From IMG/VR virus record IMGVR_UViG_3300027754_000290, positions 1-31,833 of that record: a DNA stretch of 31,833 nt; one strand, 5' to 3'. This document shows, piece by piece, positions 4,497-31,833 of the stretch. The position numbers and the translations under genes were made by a program. Every line of letters begins with the position of its first letter. Position 1 is the stretch's first letter. The notes under the pieces were generated by a model that was not told the origin of the DNA, did no database searches, and saw nothing but the letters and a program-made list of their open reading frames with translations. Source of the DNA: a virus.

Positions 4497-6424
4497 TGAC
4501 CGCTCAGAAAATTAAATTGGGCGTTGCCAGTGTCTTGTGGGGCTAGATTGTTGACTACGCCAATATTGCGTACTTTTTCAGCGCTTATGCCAGCGTTCTT
4601 AAACGGGTCGGCAAATTTTTCCCCCGCTGCTTGTCGAGCCATAGACTTACGCAATGCAGCAGCAGCCATTTTTGGGTCTAACATTTCCGTAGCAATTTCA
4701 ATTGCAATTTTTTCGTTTACCCCGCCTTTTAAACGTCGGATAATTTCATTTGCAACTGTGGCGACTCGGTTCATTAAGTTTGGCACTTGCGCCCCAGGAA
4801 CCGTGTGCAGCAAATCAGGCCCAGCTTTTGCACCTTTGCCCGCCGCGTATTCAGTTTCAGCTATGCGAGATAGATCGTTTTTTACGCCTTCTATCACGGT
4901 CATTTGTTCTGGCGACAGAATTTTAGCCAAGCTGTCATAGCGGGGCAGACCTGTGGTTGCTTTTTGTATGGTGGCGGGCGCGTTTTCTACCGCCGTTGCA
5001 AAACCACTAGCGCGCAATTTACCTGTTTCTTCGCCAAGCGCGGGGGTCAATTTACCTTCAAGATATTGCCCCACTTGCATTTGGTTGATAGGCTTGCTGC
5101 CCGCCGAGTACGTCTGACGGGCTTGGCCGTATTCGGGGACTTTGTTTTCAAACCAATTTAAAAATTGTTCACGAGTTTTACCAATTGCACTGGCTTCATT
5201 TTTGCCAATACCAAAGGTAGCGGGATCATGGGTCAAATCATCAAACGCCAATTTCATGTAGTGCAGGCTTGTGCCAGGATATTGCGCTACTTCTCCGGGC
5301 ACCGTTGTATAGCCTACGGGTTTGCCTGATGCGTCCAATATGGGCGACGGCACTGTTTGAGCAGGGCGAGTCTCGCCAATTTGAAACGTTTGGCCTTTTT
5401 CTTCGGCAAGTTGTTTAGCGCGGGCCAGCACTTTGTCCATAGACGGGCGTTCCGTAAGCGCTGCAAATGCGGCATCAGCAGGCACCACTGTTTTGTCTGC
5501 AATTCTGTACAACGGATCAGTTGCGCTAGTCCTAGCGGCTTCCGCAGCTTTAATGTCATCAGCAGTTTTACCTACGCTACGAATAGCCGCAAGCTGGGCT
5601 TCTTTTTGCGCTGCTTCACGACCTAAATACTCAGTAGGTAATTTTTCTGCGGCTTGTTTGCCTAGCGCAGCAAACCGTGTCGATCCCGCCGTTGCCGCTG
5701 CTTGCGCGGCGGTAGGCATAGAACCAGGTACAAGTTCAACCGGCGCGGCCAATGCGTTCAATATCTCAGGGGCTCGGCCTTCTGCCGCCGTCATGTACGC
5801 TTTAGATTTAGGGTCTAACGCGTTGTATATTTGTTGGCCCCCTTTTCCGGCTACTTCAAAACCTAAATTTGCAGCGCCGACAATTGGCGTCATTGGGTTG
5901 ATAACTTTGGCCGTAGTTGCTAAAACTTTAGACGCCATTGGCGCAACCCGCGCCGTTGCGGTCGCGCCGCCAGATAGAAGCGTAGATAAATCAGCCGCTG
6001 CGCCTACGGGGTCTTCAGCAAGCGTGCGTTTTATAGACTCAAAATTACCATATCTATCTTTAAGCATTCCGCCCGCAGCATTTGCAGTGTCTATTGCTCG
6101 TTTTTGAGCCGCCGGGTTAACTTCAATTGCGTTAATAGCAGTTTGAACTGCTTTGGGCATAAAATTATAGACACCGCCAGCCGCGACATCGGAAATATTT
6201 GTAAGCGTTTGTATAGGGTGTGCAAAAATATCCGCCACACCGCTTAGAAACCCCATGCCACTTTTAGGTACATTTTCAAGCGCCGCGCCGGGCACTTCTG
6301 CAAGAGTGTATGACTTGCGAGGGGCAGGCATACCATTAGAAGCCGCCGCAGGCTGCTGATATTGCTCCCAAGGGCCACTGGCGGCGGCAGCGGGCTGTTG
6401 GTATTGTTCCCACGGCCCAGCCAT
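4493..6424 (-). CDS. Ejection protein in the P22 gp16 position (643 aa)
   Basis: The last and largest of three ejection-type genes after the tail genes, as gp16 (609 aa) is in P22. The N-terminus carries two copies of a 12-residue unit, GPWEQYQQPAAA, at about residues 3-14 and 17-28. The rest is Ala/Lys/Glu-rich helix with hydrophobic Gly/Ala segments near 60-110 (VPKSGMGFLSGVADIFAHP) that could insert into membrane. No lytic transglycosylase or protease motif was found by eye. It would be packaged in the capsid and injected ahead of the DNA. Assignment rests on position, size and composition rather than catalytic residues. It shares one base with the upstream gene. Confidence 0.7.
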   Translation of the reverse strand: MAGPWEQYQQPAAAASGPWEQYQQPAAASNGMPAPRKSYTLAEVPGAALENVPKSGMGFLSGVADIFAHPIQTLTNISDVAAGGVYNFMPKAVQTAINAIEVNPAAQKRAIDTANAAGGMLKDRYGNFESIKRTLAEDPVGAAADLSTLLSGGATATARVAPMASKVLATTAKVINPMTPIVGAANLGFEVAGKGGQQIYNALDPKSKAYMTAAEGRAPEILNALAAPVELVPGSMPTAAQAAATAGSTRFAALGKQAAEKLPTEYLGREAAQKEAQLAAIRSVGKTADDIKAAEAARTSATDPLYRIADKTVVPADAAFAALTERPSMDKVLARAKQLAEEKGQTFQIGETRPAQTVPSPILDASGKPVGYTTVPGEVAQYPGTSLHYMKLAFDDLTHDPATFGIGKNEASAIGKTREQFLNWFENKVPEYGQARQTYSAGSKPINQMQVGQYLEGKLTPALGEETGKLRASGFATAVENAPATIQKATTGLPRYDSLAKILSPEQMTVIEGVKNDLSRIAETEYAAGKGAKAGPDLLHTVPGAQVPNLMNRVATVANEIIRRLKGGVNEKIAIEIATEMLDPKMAAAALRKSMARQAAGEKFADPFKNAGISAEKVRNIGVVNNLAPQDTGNAQFNFLSGQ

Positions 6425-7989
6425 TACAGTTTCTCCCAGTTAGCGGCAACGGCAGGGTCGCCACCTTTAAATCGATACCCTTCTGCTTTAGTTCCAACGG
6501 CGGGGGTGGTAGGCGCGGCGGCGGCACCAAATCGTTTAGGGATAACAACAGGCTCTGTAGAAAGGCCTGTACCTTCTGTTGCTGATTTTGGAATTTCTTT
6601 AACGCGCTTATTCCAAGTAGCCGCGCTTTTATCCGCAGCGGTATGCGAAAGTTCAGCCAAACGTTGAATAGTTTGAGCATTCAAAGTTATACGGCCACCT
6701 TCGGCGTCTTGCAAAAATTGCAAGTCTTTATCTGTAAATCCTTGGCCTGCCCCAAGCCCTGAAGATTTAACCGCGCCTAAAGTTTGACGCGCTAACCCCG
6801 ACACCAACATTTCGGTGTTGGCTATTTTTTCGTCGTTTCCAGCGCCTGCTAGATTTAAAGCGCGGGCCATGTTAAGTTTGATGTCGGCAGCAGACCCAGT
6901 AAACACATTACCTTGACTTAAAATACTTAACACGCGGTTAGCATTAGACGCCAACTCAGGTGCTCTAGTTGCAGTGTCTAACAATGCTACATCTCTGTCC
7001 GCTATTTTGCCGCCAAAAGCCTCACCATATTTTTTCTCTGTAGATTGAGAAACATTAACTTGCATGCTTGCCGCAGGCGCATGGGTAGTTTCTTTCAAAA
7101 TCATTGCGTTAAGTTCTCTAACGCGAGGATCATCTGGAGGCGCGCCGCTGGCTATTAGCGCAGCGCGCGCATCTTGATATTTAGTCAAAATCGCAGGCGC
7201 AGCATTTCTAGTTTTATCCGCGTTAAATTGCGCGTAACCTTCTGTAGTAAGCGGGTAACCTAAAGCCTGCATGGTCGATACGTCAGGAGTGCTTAAATGT
7301 TTTATTTTTTCCGCAATTAAAGTCATTCGGTCTTTAACACCCGGCAAGTCTGAATACTGAGACAACTTCATGTACTCAGTTTCCAATGCTTTTGCAGCAT
7401 TTGCTTGCGGCGCTGCCGCAAGTTGATTGACAGGCGCAGCCGGGGGCGGCATTAGTTGGTTCATTACCGGCGCTGGCGCTGGCGCAACCGTCGGTTTAGC
7501 TAAATTAAGAGGCGGGACATTAGGCTGATTGAACATGGGTACGTTTTGATCCATACCATACGTGCCCAAACCCAAAGCGCCCGGCGCAGCAGCAGCAGGC
7601 ATGGTAGGTGCAGCAACAGCAGGCGCAACTTCGCCATAAATGCCAGCTTTTTTTGCGTCAGCCAACCGTTGCAAAGACTGCAACCCCGTTACGCCGTGTT
7701 GCGAAATTTGAGGGTTTTTGTTTGTTGCCATTATTCGAAATGCTTGCATCAAATCTGGCGGGCCGCCATTTTTTTCTATGGCGTCTTTCATTTGGCTAAC
7801 GTAATTTTCATCTTGCTGAATTTGACGTTGCATCTGATCTATTTGCAACTGCGAGTGCTGTTGTTGCGTACCGGCAGCGCGTTGCTGGGCTTGCGAGGCC
7901 AAAATGTTTTGTACTTGGCCTTCCCGTGCCAATGGATCAGCAAGCTGAAGAGGCTGAACCCCAAGAGCAATTCGTGTGTCTAAAGGCAT
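6424..7989 (-). CDS. Ejection protein in the P22 gp20 position (521 aa)
   Basis: 521 residues against 471 in P22 gp20. The N-terminus (MPLDTRIALGVQPLQLADPL) leads into a Gln-rich helix (about 30-70, with QQRAAGTQQQHSQLQIDQMQRQI), a Pro/Ala-rich linker (about 130-200), then long helices. The C-terminus ends GGDPAVAANWEKL. Gln-rich helices and low-complexity Ala/Pro segments are typical of phage internal or ejection proteins. It has an AGGAA-type ribosome site before ATG at 7989. It sits between the gp7-like and gp16-position genes, which is the main reason for the call. No enzyme motif seen. Confidence 0.7.
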   Translation of the reverse strand: MPLDTRIALGVQPLQLADPLAREGQVQNILASQAQQRAAGTQQQHSQLQIDQMQRQIQQDENYVSQMKDAIEKNGGPPDLMQAFRIMATNKNPQISQHGVTGLQSLQRLADAKKAGIYGEVAPAVAAPTMPAAAAPGALGLGTYGMDQNVPMFNQPNVPPLNLAKPTVAPAPAPVMNQLMPPPAAPVNQLAAAPQANAAKALETEYMKLSQYSDLPGVKDRMTLIAEKIKHLSTPDVSTMQALGYPLTTEGYAQFNADKTRNAAPAILTKYQDARAALIASGAPPDDPRVRELNAMILKETTHAPAASMQVNVSQSTEKKYGEAFGGKIADRDVALLDTATRAPELASNANRVLSILSQGNVFTGSAADIKLNMARALNLAGAGNDEKIANTEMLVSGLARQTLGAVKSSGLGAGQGFTDKDLQFLQDAEGGRITLNAQTIQRLAELSHTAADKSAATWNKRVKEIPKSATEGTGLSTEPVVIPKRFGAAAAPTTPAVGTKAEGYRFKGGDPAVAANWEKL

Positions 7990-22665: not shown

Positions 22666-24185
22666 GAGCCCATCCATGATGTATGCATTGCGCCGTCTTG
22701 AGCGTTATAGCGGCGAGTCGGCTCAGTATACTCGCGGTGAGCCACAGGAAAAGCAAACGTCACGCATATAGCGTCCGCTGCGTCTGGTGATGCTAAGCCC
22801 CGTGCTTTCATTTCTTTCTTGCTCTCCAAGAAGATTGTTCCACGTGAATCAGGCTTCATTTTAGGCGAAATTAAATCCGTCTTCAAGAACCTGTCGGTCG
22901 GGATACTAGCAGATTTCAACCATTCCCGCATCTCACCCCACATCTGCGCGCGCATATTTCCGTACATTATCGGGTTTTTGGACTTATTTCCAAAGTTTAC
23001 ACCCTTAATCTTGTACCGCTGCTCCTTGAGCCTGTCCACAATCCCAGCCCCCAGCCCGCCTTCGTCGATCACCACCAGCGTCGGCTTGTACTCGTCAATC
23101 GCGTCGATCACATACCCCACGACCGTCATCGTGTCGTCGCCCCGATGCCGCGTTATGTTAATAATATCCCGTCCCTGGCGCACGGCTATGACCGTGGCGT
23201 CCGCGCCGTAGCGAGCCGGATCGACGCCGATGATGATGGGCGCGGACAAGTCTTTGTATTTCTCCCGCTTCATGGCCTCGTCCACTATGTCCGAGCCGAT
23301 GAACTGGTCATCCCCCGCGCTTGGGAACATCCCGTAGACCTCGACGTGCGACTGTGATGAGTCTGGCCCGTACTCTTGGATGATCCGCTCATAGACCTGT
23401 TTGTCCGTACCCTCTACCGTGCGCGCGTCCACCACCTTGGTTTTCCAAAACGCCCGCTTGGAGTTGAACGCCTCGTAAAAGTACCCCGTGTTGCGGCGCG
23501 GGTTGGAGAACGCCAGCCAGAAACGGTTGGGCGTGTTCTCAGTAAAGAAGCCCGCAGTCACCGCCCAGATCGTGTCGTCAATACCTGACGCTTCGTCGAA
23601 CACCACCAGCACGCCGTCGTAGTTATGCACACCCGCGTAGGCGTCGGGGTTCTCCGCTGACCACAGCCGCCCTTCGACGCCCCAGTACCTGGTGCCCTTC
23701 TTCAAGTCCCGCTCAACCAGTTCGGTCAGCCACTTAGCGGGCATCACCCGCGTGGCGCTGACTTCAAACCAGTGGCTGTTGATTGCCATCGCCAGCCACT
23801 TGGTAATCTCGGCCCAGGTGATACTTCTGAGTTGAGACTCACTGTTAGCCGAGATAATGGTCGTCGAGCCGATGCGGGTTGCCAGCATCCAGATGGTGAT
23901 CCATGACACTAACGCCGACTTGCCAATACCGCGCCCAGACGAAATGGCGCTTTGCAATACTGCGTAATCTAGCTGGCCCTTGTTTGCTTCGATATGCTCG
24001 GCGATGTCTTGCAGCACCTCGCGCTGCCACTTGCGCGGTCCTTTGAAGTTTTCCAGCGGTGTGCCCTTGACGCCCCACGGGAATACCAAGGCTACAAAAT
24101 TAAGCGGGTTGTCCTTGATGCGCGGCGTCCACAGACGCGCCATCAGGGCTTGCTCGTCTTCAGCGCTGTATCTGGTTGACTGCAT
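22662..24185 (-). CDS. terL: Terminase large subunit (507 aa)
   Basis: The ATG at 24185 is preferred; the open frame extends upstream to 24416, but that part is out-of-frame text of the small-subunit gene. With this start the protein is 507 residues (P22 gp2: 499). Motifs: Walker A SGRGIGKSA (about 83-91), Walker B VLVVFDEAS (Asp197-Glu198), and nuclease Asp322 (GVDPARYG), Asp374 (VVIDEGG) and Asp468/471 (SPDAADA). It cuts and translocates DNA into procapsids. It overlaps the small subunit by 26 nt and the DUF6321-like gene by 4 nt. Confidence 0.95.
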   Translation of the reverse strand: MQSTRYSAEDEQALMARLWTPRIKDNPLNFVALVFPWGVKGTPLENFKGPRKWQREVLQDIAEHIEANKGQLDYAVLQSAISSGRGIGKSALVSWITIWMLATRIGSTTIISANSESQLRSITWAEITKWLAMAINSHWFEVSATRVMPAKWLTELVERDLKKGTRYWGVEGRLWSAENPDAYAGVHNYDGVLVVFDEASGIDDTIWAVTAGFFTENTPNRFWLAFSNPRRNTGYFYEAFNSKRAFWKTKVVDARTVEGTDKQVYERIIQEYGPDSSQSHVEVYGMFPSAGDDQFIGSDIVDEAMKREKYKDLSAPIIIGVDPARYGADATVIAVRQGRDIINITRHRGDDTMTVVGYVIDAIDEYKPTLVVIDEGGLGAGIVDRLKEQRYKIKGVNFGNKSKNPIMYGNMRAQMWGEMREWLKSASIPTDRFLKTDLISPKMKPDSRGTIFLESKKEMKARGLASPDAADAICVTFAFPVAHREYTEPTRRYNAQDGAMHTSWMGS

Positions 24186-24570
24186 CAACAACCTCAATGA
24201 CGCGCATCTCTGCTTCTTGCAGCGCCTGCGTGATGGATATGCGCTGGTCAATGTCCACCGTGATGGACTGCTTGGCGACCCAGCCGTGCTGGTGTTTGAG
24301 AATCTCAAGCGCCGCCTTGGCGTCGCCTTCTCGGGCCGCTTTGTGCAGGATGTCGGCCATCTCGCGCTCGCCATCAGCCTTGCCTTTAATCGCGGCCATC
24401 TCGGCCAGTGCGTCAAATTGGCACAAGTGCCGGTACTCTTCAGGCCGCATCCCAGAGGCCAGCGCCAGTGTGTCGCCCTTGAGCCCCAGCTTGGCAGCGT
24501 CGTATATCGCCTGCAAGCGCGATTCAGTCGCTTGGACGTGTCGGACAGTGAGCGGCAGTGATTTGAACAT
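24160..24570 (-). CDS. terS: Terminase small subunit (136 aa)
   Basis: Immediately upstream of the large terminase and overlapping it. The N-terminal helices include RHVQATESRLQAIYDAAKLGLKGDTLALASGMRPEEYRHLCQ, with a helix-turn-helix-like pattern that would recognise the packaging site. The middle EREMADILHKAAREGDAKAALEILKHQHGWVAKQ is a typical oligomerisation segment of phage small terminases. Length is 136 against 162 in P22 gp3. AGGAG precedes ATG at 24570. It opens the structural operon, directly next to the repeat-rich control region. Confidence 0.82.
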   Translation of the reverse strand: MFKSLPLTVRHVQATESRLQAIYDAAKLGLKGDTLALASGMRPEEYRHLCQFDALAEMAAIKGKADGEREMADILHKAAREGDAKAALEILKHQHGWVAKQSITVDIDQRISITQALQEAEMRVIEVVDAVNQIQR

Positions 24571-24727
24571 TTGTTCTCCTGCGCCTGGGAGGCGTGTGCG
24601 TGGATTTTATATTAAAAAAATTTTGTTTGTGGCCCCTCCGTTTACGTTGGCCCATCGCGTCGGCCCTACCCCCTCCCCCCTGGCTGAAAACCATGGTCAA
24701 AATGGCAAGCATTACCTGGTGCTAGGC

Positions 24728-25080
24728 GTTGGCTATGTTGGCTATGCCAACCAAGTTGGAGTCAGCAAATTGGGGGCTGGTAGATGTTGGCTATGTTGGC
24801 TATCCAAAACAAACCGCCAACATAGCCAACACCGTGCAGCGGTGCGCGCGCAGCGTTTTACGGGCGGTTGGCGGTTGTTGGCTATGTTGGCACTTTTGAC
24901 ACCCGTTTTAAATCGCTCCAAGGTGTTTGTAAGTATTGTAAGATTTCACATTATGAAATACATAGGTTAACCCTAGAACTAGATAATCAATAGCCAACAT
25001 AGCCAACAAATTGAATTTCCTCAGCGATATGCATCCAAACAACCGCCGCCAACATTCCGCCCACTGTTGGCAATGTTGGC
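24728..25080. repeat. Iteron-like array of GTTGGCTATGTTGGC
   Basis: Exact copies of GTTGGCTATGTTGGC are at 24728-24742 (+), 24786-24800 (+), 24816-24830 (-), 24877-24891 (+) and 24993-25007 (-). A sixth copy with one mismatch (GTTGGCAATGTTGGC) is at 25066-25080 (+). Each copy is itself two GTTGGC half-sites 9 bp apart, so a dimer or a tandem binder is likely. Further half-sites occur at 24867-24872 and, inverted, at 24746-24751 and 25048-25053. I saw the repeat nowhere else in the window. It is probably bound by a replication initiator, terminase or regulator. Confidence 0.85.
24785..24831. repeat. Perfect 16-bp inverted repeat (stem-loop or cruciform)
   Basis: TGTTGGCTATGTTGGC (24785-24800) is exactly complementary to the sequence at 24816-24831, with a 15-nt A/C-rich loop. 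It could extrude as a cruciform or form a very stable RNA hairpin. It consists of two iteron copies facing each other, so protein binding by two dimers is the other obvious reading. Confidence 0.8.
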
Positions 25081-25089
25081 ACCAGGGCA

Positions 25090-25118
25090 TTGTCTCCAAC
25101 GTGACACCAGGGCATAAA
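25090..25118 (+). promoter_or_regulatory. Candidate sigma70-type early promoter with flanking direct repeats
   Basis: TTGTCT (25090-25095) and CATAAA (25113-25118) are separated by exactly 17 bp, each matching the consensus at four of six positions. The sequence CACCAGGGCAT occurs twice, at 25080-25090 and 25105-25115. One copy abuts the -35 and the other overlaps the -10, a good arrangement for a repressor or activator. It would drive the plus-strand early operon starting at 25209. No transcript evidence. Confidence 0.4.
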
Positions 25119-25130
25119 AAACACTTGCAA

Positions 25131-25153
25131 AGCGTAAAGAAATCCTTTACGCT
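25131..25153 (+). other. Leader hairpin upstream of the early operon
   Basis: Perfect 9-bp arms AGCGTAAAG and CTTTACGCT around a 5-nt loop. It would lie near the 5' end of a transcript from the candidate promoter at 25090-25118, about 55 nt before the first gene. It could be an operator palindrome, an antitermination or processing hairpin, or a 5' stabiliser. No U-run follows, so it is not a terminator. Confidence 0.6.
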
Positions 25154-25208
25154 CCAGGTGCGCGCAAGCGCAGGGCAACCCCTTCAAACTAAAGTAAAGG
25201 AAAATTAA

Positions 25209-25457
25209 ATGTCTACAGTAATGAGAGCAAACGTGATTTACACCAATCACCAAGGCGAACGCACCAACCAAACCGTCACCGTTAACCGCATTTTTGCGTA
25301 TGACGATATTGAAAAACCTACGCATTACAGCGCTCATGCGCTCGCAACGCTAGGTTGCGGAAAAGCCGATAGTGACCCAATCGGCGCGATTCACCGGCTG
25401 GTGGGCGATCATGGAGACGTCATCGCCATCCAAACCATCAACTCTATTTGGGATTAA
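25209..25457 (+). CDS. Early operon gene 1, hypothetical (82 aa)
   Basis: ATG at 25209 has AAAGGA about 8 nt upstream. The protein (MSTVMRANVIYTNHQGERTN, later HALATLGCGKADSDPIGAIHRLVGDHGD) appears mixed alpha/beta and soluble, and is not recognised. As the first gene after the control region it is probably expressed early. Its high Asn/Thr content and lack of catalytic motif give no function. Confidence 0.7.
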   Translation: MSTVMRANVIYTNHQGERTNQTVTVNRIFAYDDIEKPTHYSAHALATLGCGKADSDPIGAIHRLVGDHGDVIAIQTINSIWD

Positions 25458-25461
25458 CACC

Positions 25462-25665
25462 ATGAAAAAAGAAATTCTGATTTACGGCTTGGAGCGCGGC
25501 GAGACGCGCCGTTACACCGAGGCGCTACTTAGCACCCAATGCCAAACCGCCGCCGACATTGAAAAAGTTAAAGAGGCCGCAAGCGCGGCGGGTTACCACT
25601 CTTTCCGCATCGCCTTTTATGACGGCTCGCCGCCGAACTTTGCCGCCGCCGTTAATTTCATCTAA
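25462..25665 (+). CDS. Early operon gene 2, hypothetical (67 aa)
   Basis: ATG at 25462 is used rather than the open reading start at 25372, since it begins MKKEILIYGLERGETRRYTE just after the previous stop. The protein resembles small phage proteins with a ferredoxin-like strand-helix plan (EILIYGLERGET, then TAADIEKVKEAASAAGYHSFRIAFYDG) and contains one Cys. Function unknown. Confidence 0.65.
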   Translation: MKKEILIYGLERGETRRYTEALLSTQCQTAADIEKVKEAASAAGYHSFRIAFYDGSPPNFAAAVNFI

Positions 25666-25679
25666 TTGGAGTACACACC

Positions 25680-26000
25680 ATGAAACTCACTATCCAAAAC
25701 GCAAGCCAATTCCGCGACGAGTTCCGCCAATGCGGGCGCGCTGACCAATTCAGTTATGAGGCGCTCGGCCTTTTGTTTGACTACTTGGAGGACGTAGACA
25801 ACGACTACGATCTTGATGTTATCGCCCTCTGTTGCGAATACTCAGAGGACAGCATCGAGCAAATTGCCGAGTCTTATGGGCTGGAGTTGCCCGAAGATGA
25901 GACAGATGAAGAACACCAAGCCGCCGTGCGCGCCTACTTGGAGGCGCACACGTTTGTTATTGGTGTCACGCCCTCCGGCATTGTCTACGCTCAATTTTAA
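25680..26000 (+). CDS. Early operon gene 3, strongly acidic protein (106 aa)
   Basis: ATG at 25680 follows TTGGAG. About a quarter of residues are Asp or Glu with only a few Lys/Arg. The central part (EALGLLFDYLEDVDNDYDLDVIALCCEYS, then LPEDETDEEHQAAV) is helical and acidic. High acidity in early phage proteins often means DNA mimicry, as in anti-restriction proteins, but no Ocr-like or ArdA-like motif is clear. The pattern GRADQFSYEALGLLFDYLE also appears in uncharacterised phage and bacterial proteins. Function not known. Confidence 0.7.
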   Translation: MKLTIQNASQFRDEFRQCGRADQFSYEALGLLFDYLEDVDNDYDLDVIALCCEYSEDSIEQIAESYGLELPEDETDEEHQAAVRAYLEAHTFVIGVTPSGIVYAQF

Positions 26001-26011
26001 GGACTCACATC

Positions 26012-26317
26012 ATGCTCACAATGAAATTTAACACTACTACACTTAAAGTCAGCGAAGCAAACGCGCCTAAATACCGCAAAATTATTGATTCCGGCAAAAT
26101 CCCCAAGATTAAGCGCCCGCTGGACAATAAGAATAGTGCAACACGGCGCGACTATCCGGCGTTTTACTCCGGCATGGAAACGGCGGAATATTTGAGCCGG
26201 TATGCGTCACTTAATGCGCGGCTGCACTTGGCCTCGATTGAATTCGCGCACACTAACCGCGCAGCGCCGGAATTGGACTACACACAACCCGAAGCAATAG
26301 AGGAGGCGTTAGCATGA
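26012..26317 (+). CDS. Early operon gene 4, hypothetical (101 aa)
   Basis: ATG at 26012 starts MLTMKFNTTTLKVSEAN (a second Met at residue 4 is a possible start). Basic in the first half (YRKIIDSGKIPKIKRPLDNKNSATRRDYP), then a helical region with YPAFYSGMETAEYLSRYASLNARLHLASIEFAH. The last codons overlap the next gene (ATGA). No known domain; the basic segment may bind nucleic acid. Confidence 0.65.
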   Translation: MLTMKFNTTTLKVSEANAPKYRKIIDSGKIPKIKRPLDNKNSATRRDYPAFYSGMETAEYLSRYASLNARLHLASIEFAHTNRAAPELDYTQPEAIEEALA

Positions 26318-26427
26318 ACCGCCAACACTACAAACCCGAACCAGCCCCCCGCCCTTGGGCTGATGCCCTTCTGGCGATCTCGATCGGCCTAGCCCTAGCT
26401 TTTATTCTTTTGGAGTACCTACCATGA
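26314..26427 (+). CDS. Single-TM micropeptide (37 aa)
   Basis: ATG (26314-26316) overlaps the previous stop, has GAGGAGG upstream, and TGA (26425-26427) overlaps the next ATG. The peptide has a polar, Pro-rich N-terminus (MNRQHYKPEPAPRPWAD) followed by a hydrophobic helix (ALLAISIGLALAFILLEYLP). It would be a small inner-membrane protein. Supported by overlap on both sides and a strong ribosome site; function unknown. Confidence 0.65.
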   Translation: MNRQHYKPEPAPRPWADALLAISIGLALAFILLEYLP

Positions 26428-26615
26428 AAAACGAACAGATCAACGACTTGGCGTATGCGGCTTTAGACGCCGCTTGCGCGTCCATTCAAGACGCCTTGGG
26501 CGTCAAGACCGGCGACTTTGCCGGTATGTATTTCTCCGGCGAACGGCATGATGCCATTATCGCCATCCTTGCCGATTACATCGGTGCCGAACTATCCGAG
26601 GGGGTGCAATCGTGA
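26424..26615 (+). CDS. Early operon gene 6, hypothetical (63 aa)
   Basis: ATG at 26424 follows TTGGAGTACCTACC, nearly the same leader as gene 3 (25666-25685). A helical Ala/Asp-rich protein (LAYAALDAACASIQDALGVKTGDFAGMYFSGE, later DAIIAILADYIGAELSEG), ending VQS. Not recognised. Its C-terminal DNA (26603-26616) recurs at the next gene junction. Confidence 0.65.
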   Translation: MKNEQINDLAYAALDAACASIQDALGVKTGDFAGMYFSGERHDAIIAILADYIGAELSEGVQS

Positions 26616-26806
26616 AAAGACAAGCCAAAGTCATTAAAGAGGTTCCCGCCTGTTTATCGCCCACTGGCGCAACCCTGCCCGTTGGCACCATCATTGATTA
26701 TTGGCAAGCCCGATTCAGAAACGGCGAATGGCACTACGTCCTCGCGGACAAGACGACCACGCCCTGCGTATTTTTCGACGACTTAGAAGAGGAGGTGCAA
26801 TCGTGA
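26612..26806 (+). CDS. Early operon gene 7, hypothetical (64 aa)
   Basis: GTG start at 26612 overlapping the previous stop by GTGA. Soluble, mixed alpha/beta (KVIKEVPACLSPTGATLPVGTIIDYWQARFRNGEWHYVLAD), with an acidic C-terminus ending EEEVQS. No recognisable motif; the WQARFRNGEWHYVL strand pattern could form a small SH3-like or OB-like barrel, which is speculative. Confidence 0.62.
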   Translation: MKRQAKVIKEVPACLSPTGATLPVGTIIDYWQARFRNGEWHYVLADKTTTPCVFFDDLEEEVQS

Positions 26807-27003
26807 ATTTCGTATTGACTACAAACACTAACGACGAGCCGGTCTACGGCGTTGAGGTTAACGGCATGACCATTTATAACCCCCACATGAGCGAGTGCGG
26901 GCGCTTTGCCGTTGACCCCCTGCAAGTCTACGGACTGGATGCCCAGACCGTCGAGGCGCTCGCCGCCCTTAACGCCCAACACAACTATTCGACGGAGTGC
27001 TAA
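26803..27003 (+). CDS. Early operon gene 8, hypothetical (66 aa)
   Basis: GTG at 26803 overlapping the previous stop, preceded by GAGGAGG. The alternative upstream start at 26701 would lie inside gene 7. The protein (MNFVLTTNTNDEPVYGVEV, later MSECGRFAVDPLQVYGL) is a mixed sequence of unknown type with two Cys. Its start shares a 14-bp identical sequence with the start of gene 7. Confidence 0.62.
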   Translation: MNFVLTTNTNDEPVYGVEVNGMTIYNPHMSECGRFAVDPLQVYGLDAQTVEALAALNAQHNYSTEC

Positions 27004-27152: not shown

Positions 27153-27211
27153 TCATTCTCATAGCGGCGCTAGTCGCCGCCGTCCTAGCCATTCTTTTCG
27201 ATCTTGATTAG
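27149..27211 (+). CDS. Twenty-residue membrane micropeptide (last gene of the early operon)
   Basis: ATG at 27149 overlaps the previous stop, and TAG ends at 27211, one base before the terminator stem. The peptide is almost wholly hydrophobic (MIILIAALVAAVLAILFDLD) and could span a membrane once. Its end overlaps the convergent primase gene by 27 nt. It might be a real toxin-like or holin-like peptide, or a by-product of the leader to the terminator; I think real expression is plausible but unproven. Confidence 0.4.
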   Translation: MIILIAALVAAVLAILFDLD

Positions 27212-29494
27212 AGCCCCTTCGGGGGCTTTTTCAATGGCGCGGCGCAAGTCCGAGCGGCTGGATGCCGCTAGTTCAGGCGCGCAAAAAATGTGCTTCTTGG
27301 TTTGGTATTCGCGGGAGGCCAAGCGCCCCATATCGACCCATCCAGCTTCTTTAAGGGCATGAAGGAGCGCGGGAGGCACGATCTTGATGGCGGCGGGGGC
27401 GTAGGCTTGCAGTTCGTCACACAAGGCGTAGAAGGGCGCGCCAATAACGCCGCTGGCGAACGCGCGCTGCCGTGTTCTGATCATGTTGACCAGGAAACTC
27501 TCGGCACCGCTCATGCCATGCTCGACCATGATCATTTTGGCTTCTGTCATTGGCGGGGCTGCATTTGGATTCCAAGCCGAGACATCACGCGAGTGTAGGT
27601 AAGCCGCCACGGCTGCAAACCCGCCCCGGTGTTCGTACCAGTTCCAAAGGCTAACCGCCTCTGCTTCGGGCAACTTGCCTGCTTCTGCCCATAGGACAAA
27701 CCAACGCCGGTCTTCGCTGGGCAGGGAGATCGCCACGCGCTCGTTTGAGAATGCCACCACGAAAACGCGATTGAGGGCATAGTAAGGGTGTAAGCCCTTG
27801 CGGTTAACCAACAAAAGTTCAGGGGGCGCTGCGATGATCGGCTTGAGGGTATTCTCCAGCGCTCTGCGGTCTTTGGCCTCTGCTTGGCGCAGTTCTGCTA
27901 TCTCCATCACTTCGCACTCAAGGGCATAACCCCATTGACTGCTTAAATCTTCGTTCTTAACCAAGGAGCAATTGTGCTTGGCTTTGCCGCCTATGGCCCA
28001 AAAGAACGGCGCGAACAGGGTGTCTTTCCCTGACCCATGATTGCCGCCCAAGAGGATGGCGTGGTTGATCTTGTGGCTGGGAAACTGCACCTTGTGTGCC
28101 AGGGCGTTGAGCAAATGCTCACGCTCAAATTCAATTGGCACCATGCGCTTGACGTGACGCATCCACAAGCTAACGTCACCCGCTGCGGGGGTGGGGCGGG
28201 CGTCACGCCAGCGGTTGCCGTAGACCAGCCCCTCACGGGCGACCAGTACGGTCTCGCCTGCGGCGTAGGTGATGCCGACCAAAGCGCGCGCGCCCTTGTC
28301 TTGGCGGTACTCGTCGTATGCGTTGGATGCTTCTATCTTGCGTTTGTTATGCCGTGACTTGCAGTCGATGTGCCGGAACATAGCGTTAAAGGTCTTACGC
28401 ATCAACTCGCGCCGGTCTTGCATATCAAAATATGCGTCATCGTCTTGGATGTACGCAAACCGTTCAAACCAGCCAGACATCTCGACGCGGCCTAGTTCGC
28501 GTTGCTCGACCTCTGCGATGACCGCTGCGGCCTCGTCGGGATATGAAGGTGTCGGGCTTAGCTTGGCAAGAGCGTTGTCCATCACCGCTGCCAGCAACTC
28601 ATCACGCAGGCCATGCGACCGCTTTGGCCCGCCCTGCTCTTCTACCCACGCAAGATAGGCCACGCTATCCAGATGGGCGCAATGCTCATGCAGGCAGCAG
28701 TAGGCGCGGTTTACGGGGTGATAACGCCCCATCGGATTGCCGTCGCTATGCTCGGCGCTGTTCGGGCACACGATGCCCCACCACCCGCTGCTGTTGCCCT
28801 TCTCCAGCAAGTCGCCGCGCGCTGCTGCCCACGCCAGCACATCGTCGCCGCCGTCGTCTGTGAGCCTGATCGGGCGCACGGTGGCGGTGTCGGCGGGGTT
28901 CGGGGTGACGCCCAAGGCGGTGCAGATGGCCTCTAACGAAAACTCACGCTCTGGGTGGAACTCAACCAAGGCAGACGCAAAGCGGTCACGCCCAGGCTTA
29001 AGGTTAATCGAGCCCGGCAGTCTGAAGTTACGCACGGGGTTAATCGCGCCGCCGTCGGTGTAGCCTGCCTCGGCGATGGCGACAATGGCCGCGCTGAATT
29101 CGCCCTTCATGGGCTGATCGTCAAGGGCAAAGGTGTAGCCGTACTGGTAATTGTTGGGGCTGGTCTCCATGATCCAAGTCGGCTTGATGGGCGGCACCTT
29201 GGCTTTGGTGCCCACGTCATCTAGCACGAGGAACGCCACACGCTCGCAGGCGTCGGCCTTGGCTGCGGGCTTGCCCTCGTCAAATCGGTCGATGATGAAG
29301 CAGCCGGTGTTGCAGTACCACGCCTGGTCGGGCTTCCACTTCTTGGGCAGGAACGCAGGCCACGAACATTTAAGAGCGCCGTCGGCGTGGTGTTGCACTT
29401 CGCCGTCTTTGAGGATGGGCTTTTGCCGCACGAACAAAATAACCTCGCCCTCGGGCGCGATCTCTTCCAAGTAGCTTAAAAAATTCACAGACAT
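27185..29494 (-). CDS. Primase-helicase: AEP-like domain plus D5/SF3-like helicase (769 aa)
   Basis: ATG at 29494 is preferred to 29509: GGAAAGGG lies just upstream, and the polymerase TAA ends one base before. The N-terminal domain shows FLVLDDVG (about 88-95; acidic pair Asp92-Asp93) and NPVRNFRLPGSINLKPG, typical of RepB/AEP-like primases. A Cys/His cluster follows (CPNSAEHS and CCLHEHCAH, about 243-274), a probable zinc-binding site. The C-terminal helicase has Walker A GGNHGSGKDT (about 483-492), and later VVAFSNE and DRRWFVLW, as in DUF5906/NrS-1-type proteins. It probably starts and unwinds phage DNA. Confidence 0.82.
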   Translation of the reverse strand: MSVNFLSYLEEIAPEGEVILFVRQKPILKDGEVQHHADGALKCSWPAFLPKKWKPDQAWYCNTGCFIIDRFDEGKPAAKADACERVAFLVLDDVGTKAKVPPIKPTWIMETSPNNYQYGYTFALDDQPMKGEFSAAIVAIAEAGYTDGGAINPVRNFRLPGSINLKPGRDRFASALVEFHPEREFSLEAICTALGVTPNPADTATVRPIRLTDDGGDDVLAWAAARGDLLEKGNSSGWWGIVCPNSAEHSDGNPMGRYHPVNRAYCCLHEHCAHLDSVAYLAWVEEQGGPKRSHGLRDELLAAVMDNALAKLSPTPSYPDEAAAVIAEVEQRELGRVEMSGWFERFAYIQDDDAYFDMQDRRELMRKTFNAMFRHIDCKSRHNKRKIEASNAYDEYRQDKGARALVGITYAAGETVLVAREGLVYGNRWRDARPTPAAGDVSLWMRHVKRMVPIEFEREHLLNALAHKVQFPSHKINHAILLGGNHGSGKDTLFAPFFWAIGGKAKHNCSLVKNEDLSSQWGYALECEVMEIAELRQAEAKDRRALENTLKPIIAAPPELLLVNRKGLHPYYALNRVFVVAFSNERVAISLPSEDRRWFVLWAEAGKLPEAEAVSLWNWYEHRGGFAAVAAYLHSRDVSAWNPNAAPPMTEAKMIMVEHGMSGAESFLVNMIRTRQRAFASGVIGAPFYALCDELQAYAPAAIKIVPPALLHALKEAGWVDMGRLASREYQTKKHIFCAPELAASSRSDLRRAIEKAPEGALIKIEKNG
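27212..27231 (+). terminator. Rho-independent terminator of the early operon
   Basis: Arms AGCCCC (27212-27217) and GGGGCT (27222-27227) around a short TTCG-type loop, directly followed by a T run to about 27231. It is a textbook intrinsic terminator on the plus strand. It lies inside the last 47 bp of the minus-strand primase gene, where the stem codes for EKAPEGAL. On the minus strand no U tract follows the stem, so termination should be one-way. Confidence 0.85.
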
Positions 29495-29495
29495 A

Positions 29496-31382
29496 TTAGC
29501 CCTTTCCATAACGAGTCATAACTTCAACTTCAGCGTCTAGGGGTAAACCCTTAGCCCAATCGGGCGGGGTACACATGATTGAGCGCAGCGCCTCGGGGTC
29601 GGGCGTTGCGGTCTCGATCACAATTTCATCGTGGACGTGCAGCACCACGTCATCAAGCTGGCGCAGCGAATGGCGCAGCAAGTCATTAGCCACGGCCTGG
29701 GTGATGTTCTCGCAGGCCAGCCCCTTCCACAGACGCGCGCGGGGCCACTCTTTGGCATCAGCGGCGGGTTTCCATGCAGCTTTGGCGTAAGTCACACCTT
29801 CAGATTCCAATCGGGCGTAGGGGTAGCACAGGATGCGGCCAGAGGGCAGCACATACCATAAGTGCAGGCCGTCGAACAGGTACACGACGCGCCCCGCGTT
29901 GAACTCTTTGCCTTTGTTTCGAATCGCGCGGGTGTACGCTGATTCTAGGTCTTGCCAGTACAAAACAGACCAAGGGTTTGCCCTACGCCAAGCATCTACC
30001 ATGCGCCGCGCGTCGGACTCAGGCAGCAAGATGCCGTAGGCGCGGCCCATCGCTGCAAAGGCACCAACGCCACCGGCAAAGCCGCAGGCTAACTCCTGCA
30101 CCTTACCAATTTGGCGCTGGTCTTTGGTGACTTGGCTCACACTGACGCCAAAGGTTGCAGAGGCGTTGACCTTGTACACATCCTCGCCTGACGCAAAGAT
30201 CGCCAGCTTGTCATTACCCCTACCAGACAACCAAGGGTTTACCCTAGCTTCAATGGCCGACCAATCGGCAACGACTAGGTGTTTACCCTTACTAGGTATC
30301 AAGGCGGGTCTGAGCATTCCTTTGAGAACATCGGTAACGCGCGCACCAAACTTAGGTACGATTGCGTGGCCTCTGACCATTGCTTGGCGGGCGGCATCAG
30401 GGTCGGGCGCACATTTACGGGTGAAGTTGTGGACTTGGGCTCCATAAGACGAAGCGCGTCCAGTAGCGCTGCCGCCTGCAAACACAAAAGCGCCTCGGAC
30501 TCGGCCATCTTCTTCATCTGATAGCTGTGCAAGGCGGCTGAACTTCGCAACCGACGACGCCCATAGGTCGTCGGCGCATTGGATAACTTCTTGAACATCA
30601 TGGGGAACATCCTCACAGTTTAGTAAATTGGCCCTGATAGTTTTGTCTATGGAATATTTGCCGTCCTTCTCCATCAGCTTCTTGGCCTGCGGGCCGACAC
30701 GGGCCAGCACCCACTCGCGCATCTTGGGGGAGCGCACGCTGGTGATCTCGCCGCCGGTCACCTCGGCCACGATTTCTTGAATCTCGGCCAACTCAGTGCT
30801 GGCGTACTTGACCGCAGCCAAGCACAAGGGCACGTCCACCAACACGCCACGGTCGTTGATGCGCTCGTTGACATGGTAGTCTTGCAACTCTTGGTCTGAC
30901 AGGGGCCGCATGGCCTTGCTGATAGCCCGCATGGCACGGACATCTTGTTCGCAATAAGACACCATCTCGGCGGTTAACTCGGGCGACTCCTCGTAAGGCG
31001 GCACGCTCATCTTGCGGATTAGCTGGGCACCACGGTGGTCTTTCTTCATGGACGCGCCAGCAAAGCGCCCAACGTCTTCAAGCGAGCCAGGCGCGCAATT
31101 GGCGCGGGCCTGTGCTGCGGTGCAGTAAAACGACTCTAACGGGATGTCTAGCTGCAAGACATACCAAAAAATTAAGCGCTCGAAAGCGGCGTTGTGCGCC
31201 ATGATGCGATGGCCGGTCAGGTCAGGCAGTGACTGCCCCGGCAACCATGTCTGTACGTCTTCATCGTCGAAGGCGTAGGACATACACAGCACTTCGGTCG
31301 TGCCGTGCTGGGCGTAGTTGTAAACGCCCGCGACTTTTAGGTCGCAGGCGCTACGGGTCTCAAAATCAACCCAGAGAGTCAT
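29496..31382 (-). CDS. Family A DNA polymerase with 3'-5' exonuclease (628 aa)
   Basis: Exonuclease motifs: VDFETRS (Asp6, Glu8), AHNAAFERL (about 62-70) and YCEQD (Asp147). Polymerase motif A is VADWSAIEAR (Asp373, Glu378), motif B RQIGKVQELACGFAGG (Arg423, Lys427, Phe435) and motif C HVHDEIVIE (Asp585, Glu586). All catalytic residues are present, so it should be active. Length is typical for phage family A polymerases. The start (ATG at 31382) overlaps the upstream stop by ATGA. It is transcribed with the primase-helicase and copies phage DNA. In motif B, many homologues have Gly-Tyr where this has Gly-Phe. Confidence 0.95.
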   Translation of the reverse strand: MTLWVDFETRSACDLKVAGVYNYAQHGTTEVLCMSYAFDDEDVQTWLPGQSLPDLTGHRIMAHNAAFERLIFWYVLQLDIPLESFYCTAAQARANCAPGSLEDVGRFAGASMKKDHRGAQLIRKMSVPPYEESPELTAEMVSYCEQDVRAMRAISKAMRPLSDQELQDYHVNERINDRGVLVDVPLCLAAVKYASTELAEIQEIVAEVTGGEITSVRSPKMREWVLARVGPQAKKLMEKDGKYSIDKTIRANLLNCEDVPHDVQEVIQCADDLWASSVAKFSRLAQLSDEEDGRVRGAFVFAGGSATGRASSYGAQVHNFTRKCAPDPDAARQAMVRGHAIVPKFGARVTDVLKGMLRPALIPSKGKHLVVADWSAIEARVNPWLSGRGNDKLAIFASGEDVYKVNASATFGVSVSQVTKDQRQIGKVQELACGFAGGVGAFAAMGRAYGILLPESDARRMVDAWRRANPWSVLYWQDLESAYTRAIRNKGKEFNAGRVVYLFDGLHLWYVLPSGRILCYPYARLESEGVTYAKAAWKPAADAKEWPRARLWKGLACENITQAVANDLLRHSLRQLDDVVLHVHDEIVIETATPDPEALRSIMCTPPDWAKGLPLDAEVEVMTRYGKG

Positions 31383-31833
31383 CAGGCCGCTACGCGACGA
31401 CGACGACTAGGTGCTGGTGCCTCTACGGGCTTCTCAGCTTCACCTTCCAACGATAGCCACTCCACTAACTCAAAGACCGGGGTGAAAATCCGGCCATACG
31501 ACTTGTGCTGGTAATGCTCCTTTTTGAGGCGCACCACTGGCACTGGTTTGCTTTGGTCTTTCTCGACCTGATCTGCCAAGGCCACGGCCAAGGTCTGAAC
31601 GCTGCGCTTGCCGCCCACCGAAGTGGTCGTAAAGCGGGCTTCCATGCCCTTGTCTTCGCCAGACAGACACTTCAGACTCATACCCACCTGAGTCTCCCAG
31701 CCCTTTTTGGCTGCTGGGGGCGCGCCGTCCAAGTCCGGCAGGGGCTGGGACACGGGCACCATCTTCTCGCCCAACACCTCGCCGTCACCCCAAGCAATAA
31801 AGCCGTGGACAAAGGAGAAAGGGTTGACCGCCC
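31382..31833 (-). CDS. Hypothetical protein before the polymerase (5' truncated by window edge)
   Basis: The frame is open to the window edge, so the internal GTG at 31777 is unlikely to be the real start. The visible part includes NPFSFVHGFIAWGDG, then GWETQVGMSLKCLSGEDKGMEARF, VGGKRSVQTLAVALADQVEKDQSKPVPVV and YQHKSYGRIFTPVFELVEW. This set of blocks recurs in phages immediately before family A polymerases. A single-strand DNA-binding or processivity role is possible from context only. The C-terminus is Pro/Glu rich, ending in RRRRVAA. The stop overlaps the polymerase ATG. Confidence 0.65.
   Translation of the reverse strand, partial: AVNPFSFVHGFIAWGDGEVLGEKMVPVSQPLPDLDGAPPAAKKGWETQVGMSLKCLSGEDKGMEARFTTTSVGGKRSVQTLAVALADQVEKDQSKPVPVVRLKKEHYQHKSYGRIFTPVFELVEWLSLEGEAEKPVEAPAPSRRRRVAA

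Follow-up and report, generated by a model that had tools for sequence, protein, structure and literature searches.

An iteron array beside terS as a candidate replication origin of an uncultured freshwater phage and its probable recognition by the primase-helicase

What is the role of a cluster of short repeats that occupies gene-free DNA beside the terminase gene terS, between divergently oriented genes? The cluster belongs to an uncultured freshwater phage represented by a stretch of 31,833 nucleotides (IMG/VR record IMGVR_UViG_3300027754_000290, positions 1 to 31,833; hereafter the window), a 31.8-kb fragment whose complete relatives measure ~36–39 kb. An earlier note on this DNA had read the cluster as an iteron array that acts as an origin or a master control site, with a packaging site or a shared operator as further options. 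In our opinion, with a probability of about 0.8, the array is the replication origin of the phage and is bound by the phage primase-helicase, in a manner resembling that of Staphylococcus aureus pathogenicity islands (SaPIs), phage-inducible chromosomal islands (PICIs), or phage P4. Service as a shared operator is possible as an additional role.

The iteron array and its AT-rich core

The word GTTGGCTATGTTGGC occurs in five exact copies and one copy with a single mismatch, all of them within positions 24728–25080. Copies 1 (24728–24742), 2 (24786–24800), and 4 (24877–24891) are exact and lie on the plus strand; copies 3 (24816–24830) and 5 (24993–25007) are exact and lie on the minus strand; copy 6 (25066–25080, plus strand) reads GTTGGCAATGTTGGC and carries the mismatch. 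A word scan with shuffled controls thus confirms the bidirectional, gene-free, six-copy array described in the earlier note. Allowing up to two mismatches, the whole record holds six matches, every one inside the array, and the reversed control holds none, so that the repeat is not frequent elsewhere in the record, an outcome which that note had regarded as damaging to its interpretation. With up to three mismatches there are eight matches in the window versus an expectation of 1.45 from shuffled sequence; eight was not reached in any of 100 shuffles.

Each copy consists of two half-sites, as previously noted, the general form being TGTNGGY-N2-TGTNGGY; their spacing had been given as about one helical turn, whereas the period is 9 bp, slightly below one turn. 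Copies 2 and 3 form a convergent pair, with the plus arm in copy 2 and the minus arm in copy 3. The 16-bp sites of this pair start 31 bp apart, a spacing common to many relatives. The pair folds at −19.3 kcal/mol (z = −5.3), which is expected of any inverted sites. The whole array is held by a non-coding region of 638 bp (24571–25208; 48.6% GC), which extends from terS on the minus strand to the first plus-strand gene. No credible open reading frame was found in this region, and Rfam and tRNA scans gave no matches. The array had been said to touch terS (24160–24570, minus strand), but the start codon of that gene, at 24570, is 157 bp away from the first copy.

Copies 4 and 5 are the left and right flanks of an AT-rich core (24892–24992) of 101 bp and 31.7% GC, in agreement with the core of about 100 bp proposed before, with a plus copy on its left and a minus copy on its right. 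The iterons thus lie on either side of the core, at 24728–24891 and at 24993–25080, and the core is the proposed melting (unwinding) region. It contains the palindrome TTTCACATTATGAAA (24944–24958) and, near it, repeats of the CTTACAATA type; these may constitute a separate operator or be part of the melting region. A palindrome-like motif is present in 19 of 65 regions compared among relatives, and the CTTACAATA-type repeats in 21 of the 65.

The same arrangement is found in related phages, as the earlier note had suggested checking. A search with the primase of the window retrieved 80 related loci, in which the conserved gene order is primase, small opposite-strand genes, array, terS, terL. 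Upstream of terS, TGTNGGY dyads reach 6.6 sites per 900 bp versus 0.12 in shuffled DNA (counted with up to two mismatches in 65 regions, one of them that of the window). The position of the array is conserved and its word varies: it is degenerate among relatives (TGTNGGY), and exact identity of the 15-mer is a feature within an array. A core flanked by a plus and a minus site is present in 51 of the 65 regions, with a length of 74–124 bp (mode 101 bp) and a mean GC content of 32% versus 48% for the region. All 14 complete or near-complete relatives have one dyad cluster only, and G047 alone has two stray dyads elsewhere. At the level of sequence, therefore, the conserved iteron-core-iteron layout and its status as the sole such cluster in the genome can be regarded as shown.

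Two further loci have different repeats at the same place. In Dishui Lake phage DSL-LC05 (L246, 3590–4126), TGACCCACTGGGTCA repeats are located around and upstream of terS; its TerL is related to that of the window, and its primase and polymerase are not among the matches listed for the window's primase. In isolate ctNMl277 (L247, 6846–7219), whose primase is 49% identical, GTTTACATAAAC repeats occupy the matching position.

Covariation of the repeat word with the wing of the primase-helicase

The proposed initiator is a primase-helicase of 774 residues encoded on the minus strand at 27185–29509 (Pfam DUF5906, a match above the cut-off; PHROG DNA primase). Its helicase part has a profile match to the NrS-1 ring helicase (6k9e, E = 7e-8), and the fold of a full-length model matches 6k9c (E = 7.6e-12), the poxvirus D5/E5 proteins, and PriRep1 with double-stranded DNA (7pds). 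By profile and by the fold of the model, the protein carries a D5-like ring-helicase domain related to solved members of the NrS-1/PriRep fold. Its C-terminal residues 657–774 (27188–27541, minus strand) are predicted by AlphaFold2 to form a winged helix with the order helix-strand-helix-helix-strand-wing-strand and, in the core, a predicted local distance difference test (pLDDT) score above 90; the full-length model shows the same elements. In these models, the wing lies between two strands and contains residues A731 (codon 27317–27319, minus strand) and Q736 (codon 27302–27304, minus strand), and the loop of the window's protein is GRLASREYQTKKH. The wing of ctNMl277 is very different (MCFAPELSTKRH).

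Residues 731 and 736 covary with the repeat word. When loci found by the DNA word alone are pooled with the primase relatives, all 55 loci with TGTGGAC arrays have K731 and D/E736, and 49 of the 50 with TGTTGGY arrays have A/G731 and lack D/E736. The single exception, L183, is discounted because its two matching sites are ~7 kb from the primase, whereas a different word makes up the repeats at its array position. TGTCGGC arrays have S731 and Q736 (4/4), and H731 with P736 is found in many TGTGGGC arrays. Four loci combine K731 and D/E736 with a TGTGGGY label; their arrays are mixed and include TGTGGAC half-sites.

It should be noted that a first association scan, in which words were grouped by their fourth base only, gave a weak signal. 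The signal was resolved by regrouping the words into the classes of the wing table, a grouping chosen after the data were seen, under which position 736 ranks first and position 731 second of 757 primase columns in mutual information with the word (0.77 and 0.72 of 0.91 bits). The later checks used loci fetched by DNA word, loci from genome bins, and blind predictions; one set of word-fetched loci had been obtained before the lead and was examined after it.

A tree from which the wing was left out shows 11 changes of word class. Across eight independent supported pairs, the wing follows the change in an average of 7.2 pairs and opposes it in 0.0 (p = 0.016). With mixed arrays left out, only positions 731 and 736, of 22 columns tested, hold in all six pairs (p = 0.031). 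Eleven sister primases, of which five belong to arrays with one word and six to arrays with the other, have nearly the same sequence immediately ahead of the wing and differ within it; L024 and L299 are an example. Two relatives recovered in bacterial genome bins, by which the host of the phage is perhaps Rhodoferax-like, fit as well: L478 has LASREFQT with TGTNGGC, and L483 has LKSRRHDS with TGTGGAC. A prediction written beforehand, that TGTCGGC loci would have S731, held in all six readable wings, most of which are near-copies of known loci. The covariation, together with the predicted winged helix, supports the earlier suggestion that the primase-helicase binds the array, and we regard reading of the repeats by this protein as supported on that ground.

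The primase-helicase shares its operon with a family A DNA polymerase (29496–31382, minus strand; Pfam DNA_pol_A, PHROG 17). Upstream of the polymerase is a small conserved protein (31382–31777, minus strand), which is termed single-stranded DNA-binding protein (SSB)-like from its position only and for which no Pfam match was found. Several relatives (L129, L139, L150) have an insertion of ~0.7 kb, perhaps a homing endonuclease, between polymerase and primase.

Alternative readers and alternative roles

Could the association have arisen without recognition? Another phage or host protein might bind the array, the wing association being a by-product of linked inheritance of the array and the 3' end of the primase gene. 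The encoded C-terminus is ~2 kb from the array and may recombine with it as a block, and some residues beyond the wing are likewise associated with the word. We nevertheless consider this explanation highly improbable. TerS is closer to the array, yet is less associated with the word and may be identical in relatives whose words differ. Moreover, the genes between primase and array differ freely, the sister primases diverge at the wing after near-identity before it, and 731 and 736 are the only columns that hold in every independent pair. The helix-turn-helix (HTH) protein, finally, lacks covariation.

That last protein, which the earlier note had listed among possible binders, is encoded by an open reading frame at 2505–2876 beside the endolysin gene and is hypervariable (40–93% identity among close relatives). 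It was rejected as a reader: its homolog is 55% identical in G001, which has the window's word, and 93% identical in G009, which has another. The small plus-strand genes of the gap (25209–27003) were rejected too, none of them being present throughout the relatives; phages that are >90% identical in primase and terminase have exchanged them almost completely.

TerS was considered as the reader of a packaging site of the pac or cos type. Such sites are often near terS, and some terminase sites are composed of repeats with a spaced inverted layout, which the array resembles; the array is also upstream of terS, at the distance given above. However, L024 (TGTTGGY) and L299 and L268 (TGTGGAC) share an identical TerS despite their different words, and relatives with 98–100% identical TerS likewise differ in their words. 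In L178, L179, L181, and L183, which have the same primase family and no match to the TerS or TerL of the window, array-like repeats of altered words still occur upstream of the unrelated terminase genes (read directly in L178 and L183). The array thus tracks the primase where the terminase genes are unrelated. TerS columns, moreover, share at most 0.50 of 0.94 bits with the word. A packaging function, raised in the earlier note, is for these reasons disfavored and very unlikely. In L178 (7150–8758) and L183 (12461–14054), the terS, terL, and portal genes joined to the same replication module are unrelated, which amounts to a module swap with a border near the array.

A control site is the more serious rival, although we still consider it unlikely. 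Under this explanation, the primase-helicase or another phage protein would switch between the divergent early (plus-strand) and late (terS, minus-strand) genes, and replication would start elsewhere, for example in the gap between the SNF2 and SSB-like genes. The location of the array between divergent genes agrees with such a switch, as do the palindrome and CTTACAATA repeats of the core and, in most complete relatives, a minimum of cumulative GC skew at the SNF2-SSB gap. On the other hand, no sigma-70-like promoter was found in the array region (0 versus 0.7 expected), and the protein that covaries combines a ring helicase with a primase and is not a repressor. An origin requires a conserved core set between opposed iterons, as present here, and the adjacent gap genes, as described, are freely exchanged.

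Several observations weigh against the array as an origin bound by the primase-helicase. First, the cumulative GC skew, a check proposed in the earlier note, has its minimum away from the array, in the gap between the SNF2 and SSB-like genes of most complete relatives (for example, 4737–7521 in G016); this position also fits gene orientation. Second, array and primase are ~2 kb apart, and co-inheritance by recombination may contribute to their association, although TerS, which is nearer, is less strongly associated. Third, Foldseek returned no significant match for the isolated C-terminal domain (best E = 0.18), several of the top weak matches being winged-helix proteins, and a sequence search of this domain against the PDB found no match. 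Fourth, a blind prediction of A731 for TGTTAGC loci failed, since most of them have S731. The companion prediction, a residue other than D/E at 736, held (T736 in 8/8), and residue 738 of these loci is changed from K to A or S. The outcome therefore points to a code in which several wing residues act in combination, rather than one residue specifying one base.

The origin interpretation of the earlier note thus stands with regard to layout and to the link with the primase-helicase, whereas GC skew does not support it; binding, melting, and replication start at the array are functions that we infer. In the proposed mechanism, several copies of the primase-helicase would bind the half-sites, spaced by 9 bp, through the wing of the C-terminal winged helix, and rings would assemble on both iteron sets. 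The rings would then melt the AT-rich core between these sets, and replication would start by means of the primase and the family A polymerase that the phage itself encodes.

Comparison with known initiators and implications

The proposed mechanism is close to what has been described for the Rep proteins of SaPIs and PICIs and for the alpha protein of P4 (PMC6092414, PMC7581432, PMC4234260). In PICIs, an AT-rich region is flanked by two iteron sets (PMC6092414); binding of putative-origin repeats by the C-terminal domain of a helicase has also been described (PMC7581432). The SaPI and PICI systems have a helicase or primase-helicase as initiator, and its C-terminal domain recognizes the iterons (PMC6092414, PMC7581432). 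Such recognition is suggested here by covariation; the match of the full-length model to PriRep1 with double-stranded DNA (7pds) is a further likeness. There are also differences. The present phage is a self-standing, podovirus-like phage rather than a satellite, and its iterons, which occur in both orientations, are dyads of half-sites repeated every 9 bp. The SaPI/PICI origin is directly 3' of the initiator gene, whereas here the array is ~2.1 kb from the primase end (27185), past the variable gene block and beside terS.

According to Yeo et al. 2002 and Ziegelin and Lanka 1995, as cited in PMC4234260, P4 alpha combines primase, helicase, and a repeat-binding C-terminal winged helix in one protein. 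The window's protein likewise combines primase, helicase, and a predicted C-terminal winged helix. It differs in having no Toprim primase match, DUF5906 being the only Pfam match at a threshold of E = 0.01; a sequence search of the PDB did not match it to the P4 origin-binding domain. Phage P4 has a pair of elements, ori and crr, whereas a single array is present here.

The closest solved helicase part, by profile and fold, is that of the NrS-1 primase-polymerase (PMC8718748; 6k9c/6k9e). NrS-1 is an example of a phage replication enzyme whose initiation sites are sequence-specific: its primase site is TTTGGTTA, recognized in the template DNA (PMC8718748). The present system differs in that the C-terminal wing is implicated and that the family A polymerase is encoded separately. 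Another instructive case is Cch2 of the staphylococcal cassette chromosome mec (SCCmec), a D5-type helicase; its C-terminal domain, taken in isolation, binds direct repeats of the putative origin (PMC7581432). Unlike the phage array, that cassette has three 5-nt iterons, located directly downstream of the gene. Iteron plasmid origins have DnaA boxes next to their iterons and use a Rep of the RepA/pi type, and the candidate initiator described here is of another type.

Origins of this kind are thus already known. What is new is their occurrence in this phage group, a location next to terS at a distance from the initiator gene, and repeated switches that involve word and wing together. We tentatively extend the last point to an evolvable origin-recognition code, to which we would assign somewhat less than an even chance. 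A few wing residues (731, 736, and probably 738) would set which half-site bases are read, lineages would have switched word and wing together many times, and the origins of close relatives would be mutually incompatible, possibly protecting a phage from replication parasites or co-infecting kin.

If the origin interpretation is true, the origin and the initiator of a large group of uncultured phages have been identified from sequence alone. These phages would then also provide a natural data set of paired changes in protein and DNA, with which the rules of initiator recognition could be tested directly.
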